Assembly (NCBI GenBank): GCA_018824545.1
Contig: JAHJGG010000059.1
Coordinates: 1 to 33,451 of the forward strand
From: Patescibacteria group bacterium
Lineage (GTDB): Bacteria; Patescibacteriota; Patescibacteriia; Magasanikbacterales; UBA922
Direction of reading: 5' to 3'
DNA: 33,451 nucleotides
Positions 3,252-33,451 of the stretch are shown in pieces. Position numbers and translations under genes: made by a program. Each line of letters starts with the position of its first letter. Positions within the stretch are counted from its first letter, which is position 1. The notes under the pieces were generated by a model. The model saw nothing but the letters and a program-made list of their open reading frames with translations. It made no database searches and was not told the origin of the DNA.

Positions 3252-3411
3252 AACACCTTGGGGGGTCCGGGGGCGCAATTGTTTGAGCCCCCAATACTAG
3301 TATTACCATATTTTACTATGTAAAAAGGGGCGAGTTTTGCGCCCCAGGGACTTTTTGGTACTTTTTGGTCACAAAAAGTACAAACACAAATATTGTCCAT
3401 TACTCAATCTT
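3252..3411. repeat. 160-bp interspersed hairpin-rich repeat, copy 1
   Basis: About 95% identical to 5411-5569 in the same orientation: six substitutions and one indel by direct alignment. It contains three potential hairpins: GGGGGC/GCCCCC, GGGGCG/CGCCCC, and a perfect 10-bp GTACTTTTTG/CAAAAAGTAC stem around a GTCA loop. Weaker similarity continues on both sides. No ORF or transposase is associated. Together with its flanks it fills the 440-bp gap between nusA and yraN; the rest of that gap shows only AT-rich sequence. Confidence 0.93.
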
Positions 3412-5410: not shown

Positions 5411-5569
5411 AACACCTTGGGGGTCCGGGGGAGCAATTGTTTGAGCCCCCAATACTAGTAATACCATATTTTACTATGTAAGAAGGGGCGAGTTTTGCGC
5501 CCCAGGGACTTTTTGGTACTTTTTGGTCACAAAAAGTACAACCACAAATATTGACCGTTACTCAATCTT
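5411..5569. repeat. 160-bp interspersed hairpin-rich repeat, copy 2
   Basis: Second copy of the element at 3252-3411, same orientation, about 95% identical. Several differences lie outside the three hairpin stems, and the 10-bp GTACTTTTTG/CAAAAAGTAC stem is unchanged. The copy lies about 130 bp beyond the rplS stop codon. Confidence 0.93.
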
Positions 5570-9706: not shown

Positions 9707-9955
9707 AATCAAATAACAAATATCATATAACAGATAACATTAATCAGATAATACGGTTCAAATAACAGATAACAAAAAACATGCGTAAGTATGTTTTTTT
9801 AATTTTCAAATATTCCAAACAATTTTATTATAGATAAAATTGCACTTATCAAATATCAATAAAAAATAATGTTCCTATTCGTTACTTGTTTTTTGTTCCT
9901 TGCTTTTTGTTATTTGTTACTTGTTTTTTATTTTTTAAAATTTGTTTTTTATTTT
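9707..9955. repeat. Inverted ATAACA/TGTTAT word arrays downstream of DUF389 gene
   Basis: Left words: ATAACAAATATCATATAACA, AACAGATAACA, repeated to 9780. Right words: GTTACTTG, TTGTTCCTTGC, TTGTTATTTGTTACTTG (9881-9935), roughly the complement of the left words. The DUF389 terminator lies between. The 487-bp gap 9707-10193 otherwise holds a single TTATACACA DnaA-like box (9966-9974) and AT-rich sequence. Confidence 0.7.
9774..9799 (+). terminator. Terminator of DUF389 gene
   Basis: AAAAAACAT pairs perfectly with ATGTTTTTT around an 8-base loop, followed by further T. Confidence 0.8.
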
Positions 9956-21136: not shown

Positions 21137-21289
21137 TGTCATCCTGAGTGAAGTCGCCGTGCCTGCCTGCAAGCAGGAGAGATCTTTCAAAATCTAAGTC
21201 AAATGGACCAACTTAATCCCTGCTAAGTCAATAAAACATTAATCTTGAAAGATCCTTCATCCCGATGCGAATCGTGATTCAGGATGACA
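21137..21289. repeat. TGTCATCCTGA-ended inverted-repeat element
   Basis: About 153 bp with perfect 11-bp terminal inverted repeats (TGTCATCCTGA at 21137-21147; TCAGGATGACA at 21279-21289). Inner complementary AGATCTTTCAA and TTGAAAGATC segments add to the fold-back. The TGTCATCCTGAgtGAAG word is a widespread interspersed bacterial repeat end. The element lies between the terminator of the zinc-ribbon gene and the helicase stop, two bases from the latter. No transposase or clear target duplication was seen. Confidence 0.85.
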
Positions 21290-21291
21290 GA

Positions 21292-23364
21292 CTAAAGCTC
21301 ATCAATCCCCCGCAAAAAACTCCTTGGTCCTCCCTCATCAACTGCCTCATATACAATATCATCAACATCATCACTCGGATCATCCCACCCCGAAAAATCG
21401 CTTTGCTCACTCGGGGTAAAAACAGTACTAGCTATAAAACCACTCTCACTGATTAGATCCCTATTAATTTCCTCAAGAAACATACTAGGGCCAGAATTCA
21501 AACTATTAAAACCACCCGACAATGGATACGTCAAATATAAATACTTTTTTGCTCTTGTTAACGCTACATAAAACAAACGTCTCTCTTCCTCCACTCCATC
21601 AGCTTCAGAAAGTGCTCGATCATTTGGAAATTGTCCAGCAGATAAATTTAAAATAAATACTGCTTGCCACTCCAAACCCTTGGCCTGATGTACAGTTGAT
21701 AATATTATTTTTTCATCATCACTTCCCCTTTCTGACTGAGATGTATTGTAGCTCTCCTGCATGCTTGCTTCAGCCAAAAATCTTGGCAAGTCTGACTGAC
21801 GCTCTGAAAACACTGAGAGTTGTAGAAGATCCTGCAATCGCTCACGATAATCTTGATACTCATATTCCAAATATTCAGTATATTTGGAATCCAATACTGC
21901 TTTTATAAGTTCGGACGGTATTTTTTCTACCAAAAGCATTTTCTTCCAGACAGACATAAAATCATTCCACCCCATTTGCCCACGAGAAGATAGCATACTG
22001 CCAAATTGTGATAATTCTTCTGTGGTATCAGCTAGGGCAATTGCCTGAATCAGCTTTTGCGCACCAGACGGACCTATCCCGACTTGCATATTCAAAACTC
22101 GACTCCATGCAATTACGTCATCTTTATTATTAAAGACTCGCAAATATGCTAATACATCTTTGATATGAGCACGCTCAAAAAATCTTACTCCTCCACGATA
22201 GTCATAAGGAATATCACGCTTCACAAGTTCTACTTCCAAAGCTTGGGAATGAAACGAGGCACGAAACAAAACTGAAATTTCTTTTAGTGGGACTCCCTCT
22301 TCGCGAAGCTCCAAAATTCTCTCTGCAATAAATTCTGCTTCTTCATAATTATCAGAAAATGGAAGTACTTCCGGTTTTGTAAAAGGATTCAAAATACTTT
22401 TTAGATCTTTGTCATACTGCTTTATATTATTAGCAATTACATCATTTGCAAGATTCAAAATATCCGGAGTAGAACGATAGTTAGTTTCTAATTTAAATAT
22501 TTTGGCATCAGGATAACCCTCTCCGCCAAAGGCGGATCCGCCTTTGGCGGAAAATGCCAAAATATTTTTGATATCAGCTGCCCGAAATGAATAAATACTT
22601 TGTGCGTCATCTCCTACTACCAAAATATTTTTGTGCTTTCCAGCCATGAGCCTAATGATAGATGCTTGCACTCGATTGGTATCCTGATACTCATCAACCA
22701 AGACATACTGAAATTGTGTTGCATATGCATCGCGTACTCTTTCTGACTTTAGTAATAATAAATATAGATTGACAAGCAGATCATCAAAATCCATTACATT
22801 GGCAGAAAGCTTTCGAATACGATAGTCATCTGCAATTCTACTAAGTACATCATTTAGGTCCGACCACTTGGGATGTTTTAATTCCAAAACTTGTTCAATT
22901 GTCTCTCCAGCATTTCTAGCATAGCTAATAATAGACTGAACCACTTTTGCAGATGGAAATCTTCTCTGTTTTCTATCTACTCCTTCTTGCTTTAGACAAA
23001 TCTTAATAAGATCCACGCTGTCAGCACTGTCCAAAATAGAAAAATTACTTTTATAATTTAAAAGAGGCGCATATTTTTTTAATATTCTATAAGATACATG
23101 ATGAAATGTACCTGACCATGGCAATCGAACTTTACCTCCTGATAATTCTTGAACTCGATTAATCATTTCTTTGGCAGCTTTGTTTGTAAATGTTACCAAA
23201 AGAATATTTTTTGGGTCAACCCCTTGTTCTATTAGGTGAGCGACTCGATACGTAATGGTCCGCGTCTTGCCACTACCAGCTCCAGCCAAAACCAAACAAG
23301 CACCATCTCCATTTTGGACAACCTTTAGCTGTTCTTCATTTAATTCATTTATATAATCAATCAT
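21292..23364 (-). CDS. UvrD/PcrA-type superfamily 1A DNA helicase
   Basis: 690-residue ATP-dependent 3'-5' DNA helicase for repair and replication restart. Motifs in order: ELNEEQLKVV (Q motif), GAGSGKTRT (28-36, Walker A), LVTFTNKAAKEM (Ia), VLVDEYQDTN (222-230, Walker B), VVGDDAQSIYSFRAAD (III), KLETNYRSTPDIL (IV), IILSTVHQAKGLEWQAVFI (V) and EERRLFYVALTRAKKYLYLTY (VI). The accessory domains are present, with a short acidic C-terminal tail. Between motifs III and IV, residues 272-281 (SAKGGSAFGG) are encoded by a perfect 30-bp palindrome not found in PcrA or UvrD. Which paralogue (uvrD, pcrA or rep) it is cannot be fixed from sequence alone. Confidence 0.95.
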   Translation of the reverse strand: MIDYINELNEEQLKVVQNGDGACLVLAGAGSGKTRTITYRVAHLIEQGVDPKNILLVTFTNKAAKEMINRVQELSGGKVRLPWSGTFHHVSYRILKKYAPLLNYKSNFSILDSADSVDLIKICLKQEGVDRKQRRFPSAKVVQSIISYARNAGETIEQVLELKHPKWSDLNDVLSRIADDYRIRKLSANVMDFDDLLVNLYLLLLKSERVRDAYATQFQYVLVDEYQDTNRVQASIIRLMAGKHKNILVVGDDAQSIYSFRAADIKNILAFSAKGGSAFGGEGYPDAKIFKLETNYRSTPDILNLANDVIANNIKQYDKDLKSILNPFTKPEVLPFSDNYEEAEFIAERILELREEGVPLKEISVLFRASFHSQALEVELVKRDIPYDYRGGVRFFERAHIKDVLAYLRVFNNKDDVIAWSRVLNMQVGIGPSGAQKLIQAIALADTTEELSQFGSMLSSRGQMGWNDFMSVWKKMLLVEKIPSELIKAVLDSKYTEYLEYEYQDYRERLQDLLQLSVFSERQSDLPRFLAEASMQESYNTSQSERGSDDEKIILSTVHQAKGLEWQAVFILNLSAGQFPNDRALSEADGVEEERRLFYVALTRAKKYLYLTYPLSGGFNSLNSGPSMFLEEINRDLISESGFIASTVFTPSEQSDFSGWDDPSDDVDDIVYEAVDEGGPRSFLRGIDEL
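22522..22551. repeat. Perfect 30-bp palindrome inside the helicase gene
   Basis: TCCGCCAAAGGCGGA joined to its own reverse complement. It makes exactly ten codons (SAKGGSAFGG) between the Walker B/III region and motif IV. GC content is far above the surrounding gene. Confidence 0.97.
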
Positions 23365-33182: not shown

Positions 33183-33451
33183 TCAATGTACCAGTCTTTT
33201 TGCCAATCTATAAAAATAATAAATAAACTTATTCAAAACCAAATCAACTGCCTGTGGGTACTCTCTTACCTCCCCACCAAATCCAGCCTTAAACCTTGTA
33301 ACCCCAGTCCACCTATGATCCCCCTGCCAACACAAATTATGAAAACAAGTCTCCACTCGCTTGCTTTTTGTTCCTTGCTTTTTGTTCCTTACAAGAGGAG
33401 CAATCCCCCAAAAATCATAAATCTCACAATTTAATTTTTTTGCCAGCTTCA
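33183..33451 (-). CDS. FemAB-family peptidoglycan aminoacyltransferase, C-terminal part (runs off window)
   Basis: 89 C-terminal residues are visible. The segment EIYDFWGIAPL followed by WTGVTRFKAGFGGEVREYPQAVDLVLN is typical of the C-terminus of FemX/FemAB enzymes, which add amino acids to the lipid II stem peptide. Between WGIAP and WTGVTRFK there is an insertion (LVRNKKQGTKSKRVETCF...) partly encoded by a 14-bp tandem repeat. The stop is TGA. The start and catalytic region lie beyond the window. Confidence 0.85.
   Translation of the reverse strand, partial: KLAKKLNCEIYDFWGIAPLVRNKKQGTKSKRVETCFHNLCWQGDHRWTGVTRFKAGFGGEVREYPQAVDLVLNKFIYYFYRLAKRLVH
33361..33388. repeat. 14-bp tandem repeat inside the FemAB gene
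   Basis: TTGCTTTTTGTTCC twice in direct tandem. 22 bases (33365-33386) are identical to the intergenic array at 9890-9911. Confidence 0.9.

Follow-up and report, generated by a model that had tools for sequence, protein, structure and literature searches.

Palindromic repeats that insert in frame are best known from Rickettsia and from the tagged REPs of cultured bacteria. The Rickettsia palindromic elements (RPEs), reported from Rickettsia, measure about 150 bp and insert in frame (PMC10969869). REPs bear GTAG (or CGTC) tags and usually reach hundreds of copies, the GTAG REPs flanking RAYT genes (PMC3116915, PMC3733652), and REPINs are inverted REP doublets, mostly extragenic (PMC3116915). 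Di Nocera et al. described GTAG- and CGTC-tagged palindromes, some of them intragenic and many in DNA repair genes, and the genes decorated by REPs or RPEs in their list include UvrD/REP helicases and uvrB (PMC3733652). The CGTC repeats have no dedicated transposase, and the same tag is carried by RPE-4 and RPE-6 (PMC3733652).

An earlier note on the DNA analysed here (the window, a stretch of 33,451 nucleotides) had pointed to an exact 30-bp palindrome, richer in GC than its surroundings, encoding ten residues between motifs III and IV of a UvrD/PcrA helicase, at a place where PcrA and UvrD lack them. Each of these points was confirmed. The sequence TCCGCCAAAGGCGGATCCGCCTTTGGCGGA is identical to its own reverse complement and has 67% GC, whereas the surrounding 1 kb has 36%. 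No other perfect palindrome in the window is as long, the runner-up having 20 bp, and the maximum palindromes in 20 shuffled windows had 14 to 22 bp. It is formed by two inverted 15-bp hairpins, TCCGCCnnAGGCGGA and TCCGCCTnnGGCGGA, and its ten codons are read in frame with the helicase ORF (table). This ORF matches UvrD-helicase (6.7e-80) and UvrD_C (1.8e-62) in Pfam, and its alignment to PcrA (1pjr) leaves a 9-residue gap between the ILSF helix after motif III and the YPNAK strand before motif IV.

Features of the element and its host gene in the window.
Feature	Position	Strand	Basis or remark
Inserted 30-bp palindromic element, ten helicase codons SAKGGSAFGG	22522..22551	.	Sequence and family copies
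Hairpin unit 1, TCCGCC-AAA-GGCGGA, 6-bp stem, 3-nt loop of nnA type	22522..22536	+	
Hairpin unit 2, TCCGCC-TTT-GGCGGA, loop of Tnn type, inverted relative to unit 1	22537..22551	+	
5' target flank (coding strand), TTT (Phe) codon, conserved in empty orthologues	22552..22554	-	Preference for T at -2
3' target flank (coding strand), GAG (Glu) codon	22519..22521	-	Preference for A at +2
Gene hosting the element between motifs III and IV, a UvrD/PcrA-type helicase of 690 aa	21292..23364	-	Pfam, PDB alignment

From 30 helicase orthologues compared at the DNA level, 26 are empty at this site, with the ILxF helix running straight into the loop, mostly as F-E-x-x-YP, so that the alignment of orthologues gives a clean presence/absence pattern. 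Besides the window gene (G000), the same site is occupied in G031, G040 and G061, always by the same element family. The earlier note had considered an old structural loop, in which close orthologues would share the residues in non-palindromic codons; none among the 30 does so, and those bearing the residues carry the element family. Judged from these alignments, the window palindrome is an insertion, its close orthologues having no element. Relative to the empty form, the helicases of G031, G040 and G061 have exactly 30 extra nt. In the window helicase the ten codons keep the frame, as had been claimed, while the net gain is 27 nt, one codon next to the element having apparently been lost.

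In a maximum likelihood tree of the 30 genes, built with the loop removed, four state changes are needed, every one forced by well-supported branches, and a single clade of inserted helicases is rejected (p-AU 1.6e-38). Empty near relatives are G038 for G031, G033/G009/G045 for G040, and G053 for G061. On these sequences, four separate insertions at TTT-GAA are the simplest reading. It is improbable that one old insertion was vertically inherited and lost many times, or spread by recombination of gene segments; the four genera do share the site and the element family, and only 30 genes were available, but besides the result of the tree the loop triplets differ in all four genes (AAA/TTT in the window, AGA/TCT in G031, CGA/TCG in G040 and CTA/TCG in G061). 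Moreover, the TTT-GAA target is kept in most empty genes, and hence is nearly always available; its second codon is mostly GAA (Glu) in the empty orthologues, and GAA or GAG in the other inserted helicases. As for the effect of the element, it is probably neutral in the helicase: in the AlphaFold model of the window protein, insert residues 274-281 have pLDDT below 50 and are predicted as a disordered coil between the helix 265-270 and the strand 288-292, in the loop separating motifs III and IV.

Copies elsewhere allowed us to define a family, whose unit is a 15-bp hairpin, TCCGCC-nnn-GGCGGA, with the element made of two units head to head, the first having an nnA loop and the second a Tnn loop. 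Variant stems remain paired (TCAGCC/GGCTGA, CCAGCC/GGCTGG, CCCGCC/GGCGGG). The description as a palindrome is exact for the window copy and had to be refined for the family to two inverted hairpins, since many copies are not full palindromes. Complementary loops, which give full palindromes, were found in 61 of 191 distinct copies against 27 from shuffles. We rejected this excess as evidence of RNA structure, since variants shared by lineage may be enough to explain it; both full-palindrome and non-palindromic copies fold strongly, as DNA and as RNA. Lone 15-bp units are also found in G058 (L247, L248, L251), within TGTCATTCTGA[TCCGCCTCAGGCGGA]GAAGAA repeats, which suggests that the hairpin unit is a module common to several repeat families.

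A search of the genome and of related genomes for the core of the palindrome had been proposed earlier. The exact 18-bp core has no second occurrence in the source genome, which belongs to a family of Ca. Magasanikbacteria, yet at least 13 family loci were found there using the pattern with up to 3 mismatches, the reversed-pattern control giving 0. Three of the 13 loci are in-frame copies in other genes, namely tatD, aspS (QKV[SARGGPAGGW]DFGHNPFSMP) and a glycosyltransferase, the last one decayed. Among the 86 genomes of the order, 21 have exact double elements and 54 have single units; across the phylum, exact doubles were found in 28 of 380 sampled genomes. Every one of the eight species in a genus of family f45 carries the element, with 1 to 19 copies each.

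The family is also dispersed across phyla. The scan of GTDB species genomes returned at least 118 stretches, from many Patescibacteria and from other phyla, with exact copies also in Omnitrophota, Kiritimatiellota, Ignavibacteriota and others, and among the matches listed the element family occurs in uncultured bacteria of more than 20 named phyla; carriers outside Patescibacteria in these matches include Omnitrophota, Kiritimatiellota, Lentisphaerota, Ignavibacteriota, Auribacterota, Firestonebacteria, Margulisbacteria, Myxococcota and Chloroflexota. The genomes compared are mostly MAGs. Fourteen non-patescibacterial genomes contain 1 to 41 copies each, usually over several contigs, which argues against stray binning. 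Viral matches were restricted to one viral contig, and E. coli and plasmid records gave no match at E <= 0.01, a search made weak by the 36-base query. The counts depend on simple ORF calls and on fixed patterns, which miss diverged copies. In the literature we found neither the core sequence in a relevant context nor such repeats in Patescibacteria; the palindrome is one copy of an element family with no earlier description.

It is very improbable that these sequences are a functional DNA or RNA signal (an uptake sequence, a terminator or a protein-binding site) placed by selection and not mobile. Many intergenic copies could act as hairpins, and the stem variants keep their pairing. However, carriers have only 1 to 41 copies and most relatives have none, congeners differ in presence at the same site, and copies lie mid-ORF in essential genes, at unrelated positions.

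Most of the distinct copies (131 of 191) are within ORFs of at least 120 aa. Host genes include dnaG, pheT (two copies), cysS, tsaD, an mfd-like helicase, dnaJ (several), rsmH, atpD, leuS, pyrG, miaA, aspS, uvrB (two in the same gene), gyrA and a ddl-like ligase, some named from sequence motifs and others from Pfam or PDB matches; the copies in uvrB, leuS, atpD, pheT, dnaG, aspS, pyrG, miaA, tsaD and dnaJ are in frame. PDB alignments reveal the insert residues as extra in the PcrA-type helicase, LeuRS, UvrB, MiaA, CTP synthase and AtpD. In most cases with a close empty site for comparison, the net gain is exactly 30 bp. The two uvrB sites have gained exactly 30 nt relative to close relatives, and no target-site duplication is present at the exact +30 sites of uvrD and uvrB. 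In gyrA of the congeners G444 and G297 the net gain is 15 nt, with adjoining codons lost, so that copies are later trimmed. An excess of 7-bp direct repeats was discarded as a target duplication because it comes largely from copies in 7-bp tandem arrays (e.g. L010, L124, L168, L181).

The flanks have T at -2 in 83 of 104 coding and 35 of 46 non-coding copies, and A at +2 in 91 of 104 and 36 of 46, respectively. Since coding and non-coding copies agree, the preference acts at the DNA level. A five-base TTNAA target was rejected, the joint test giving 62 against 71 in shuffles. The length is a multiple of 3, and stops are normally absent from every frame. The SAxGG frame is used by 112 of 122 copies in ORFs of at least 200 aa; the three frames have 112/5/5 copies against 57/29/37 expected from the target preference in host genes (p ~1e-22), so SAxGGSAxGG is strongly favoured over the other two frames, which give P/A/D-rich and R-rich peptides. 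We take this strong bias as purifying selection on the protein.

The frame bias, and a peptide plausible as a flexible linker, would also fit a protein feature, that is, a Gly/Ser/Ala linker selected in the helicase, with the palindrome arising by chance or codon bias. This idea is hardly credible and is refuted by the 46 non-coding copies with the same nucleotides; the element is likewise present in unrelated proteins, orthologues lacking it are intact, and a 30-bp palindrome is beyond chance in the shuffled windows. The window palindrome is very probably one copy of a non-autonomous, hairpin-forming mobile micro-element, as indicated by the dispersed family, presence and absence between species at orthologous sites, net gains of exactly 30 bp at several sites and repeated gain at the helicase site.

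Several neighbouring features were recorded. Some copies directly follow an ATG (L378, L383, L385, L388, L314, L315, L190, L101) and form N-terminal SAxGGSAxGG tags; in many of these, another ATG in the same frame lies 12-15 nt upstream (ATGnnnnnnnnnATG[element]AAA). The pheT gene that hosts two elements (L102:4444-6930, minus strand) also has an NlpC/P60 domain match between the B3/4 and B5 domains. In uvrB orthologues of the order (L316-L345), several unrelated palindromic repeats lie in frame at the same three loops, among them the 30-bp element, a CCTCTCC...GGAGAGG repeat and repeats of the TGTCATYCTGAGCGAAGCGAAG type, read as VILSGAKDL...QND. Just downstream of the helicase gene (window 21137-21290) there is a long imperfect inverted repeat of the TGTCATCCTGAGTGAAG...GATCTTTCA / TGAAAGATCC...TCAGGATGACA type, whose family is also found in frame within some uvrB genes. 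The window has degenerate intergenic 7-bp tandem arrays (1238-1323, 9707-9776, 9876-9945, 33351-33399), similar arrays surround element copies elsewhere (L010, L124, L168, L181, L284), and the window segments 3261-3411 and 5419-5569, about 2.2 kb apart, are a 151-bp direct duplication with 96% identity. In G061:C4 (L288, about 1553-1729) an element comes after a partial tRNA-Glu (5' fragment), and an intact gene for this tRNA lies immediately downstream.

Regarding the mobilising enzyme, the lack of target duplication, the one-sided T/A flanks and the paired inverted hairpins together are reminiscent of single-strand transposition (HUH, Y1). The association of Y1/HUH transposases with the element is only partial. 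In the window's family, Y1_Tnp was found in 12 of 15 carriers against 9 of 31 other genomes (p=0.0016, kinship ignored), and the contrast is sharper for short IS200-type TnpA with genomes scored by 8 or more units (13/14 against 5/32), a post hoc split that ignores phylogeny; in family f8 there is no such association. Among 16 high-copy genomes, 11 have Y1_Tnp genes, mostly long RAYT-like ORFs, and in the other five, the nearly complete G075, G061, G216, G247 and G410, a Y1_Tnp match is absent. The hairpins do not seem to derive from IS200 ends, as they are unrelated to the terminal hairpins of the multi-copy IS200 in G021. A 3-kb contig with an element near each end (G061:C2), looking like a circle or transposon, was discarded since it has a 95% identical 398-bp duplication and no clear transposase.

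These data bear on the alternative that the element is a true REPIN/REP moved by a RAYT (Y1 HUH) transposase of the same genome and merely devoid of a recognisable tag. The two inverted, oriented units (nnA/Tnn), the absence of target duplication and the T-rich 5' flank fit Y1 transposition, as do the correlation in the window's family and the Y1_Tnp genes of 11 high-copy genomes. We nevertheless regard it as rather unlikely: the GTAG/CGTC tag is absent, Y1_Tnp matches are absent from several high-copy genomes that are nearly complete, and RAYT linkage found no support, as essentially none of about 40 Y1 loci scanned is flanked by an element, with one double element lying about 1.4 kb away in G043. 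Its mainly intragenic location also contrasts with REPs, most of which are extragenic (PMC3116915, PMC3733652).

For the micro-element we suggest that two 15-bp hairpins, head to head, would insert without target duplication at sites with T at -2 and A at +2. Genic copies would be retained since their length is a multiple of three, their frames have no stop and (SAxGG)x2 is a small flexible linker fitting a surface loop, and selection would purge those read in either of the remaining frames or placed where the structure is sensitive. An enzyme recognising hairpins in single-stranded DNA might move it in trans, for which a Y1/HUH transposase of RAYT or IS200 type may be the best candidate class. 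A wider reading, which we offer tentatively as quite possible, is that of a cosmopolitan 30-bp mobile element, among the smallest known, pre-adapted to coding DNA by its length, open frames and linker-like peptide, moved by some hairpin-recognising enzyme, that would have reshaped core proteins again and again in streamlined bacteria belonging to many phyla.

In-frame palindromic insertion is found here for a much smaller, untagged element, present in Patescibacteria and several more uncultured phyla, with hosts as conserved as atpD, leuS, uvrB and gyrA. Its copies are natural data on insertion tolerance in essential proteins, the recurrent uvrD insertion makes target choice testable, and the element is a defined substrate for finding the enzyme that moves RAYT-less hairpin elements. 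It is also a warning that protein loops in such genomes can be selfish DNA rather than adaptations.

The earlier comparison with RPEs holds for the behaviour, since the element inserts in frame, is dispersed and has empty orthologues, and fails for sequence, size and tag. Like RPEs, it occurs both in non-coding DNA and, as a tolerated extra peptide, within the frame of essential and repair genes, and it enters unrelated protein-coding genes in frame (112 of 122 copies, ORFs of at least 200 aa). Unlike the RPEs of Rickettsia (about 100-150 bp), it has 30 bp, no tag and a cross-phylum distribution (Patescibacteria, Omnitrophota and others). With REPs and REPINs it shares short hairpins, two inverted units as the replicating unit and no coding capacity of its own; unlike them, its flanks have only T at -2 and A at +2 and no GTAG/CGTC tag, it flanks no RAYT gene, 131 of 191 copies are inside ORFs of at least 120 aa while REPs are mostly extragenic, and carriers have 1 to 41 copies and not the usual hundreds. 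It also differs from a MITE of a DDE transposase by the net gain of 30 nt without target-site duplication at the uvrD and uvrB sites. Cyanobacterial small dispersed repeats (SDR) are mobile hairpin repeats of 21-27 nt, which it resembles in being very small, forming hairpins and inserting cleanly, but with other sequences and other hosts. Mitochondrial double-hairpin elements (DHE) are, by description, similar in having two adjacent hairpins and being mobile, but they are organellar. By tag, RAYT linkage, extragenic bias and size the element is no member of the RPEs or REPINs, yet it works like them.
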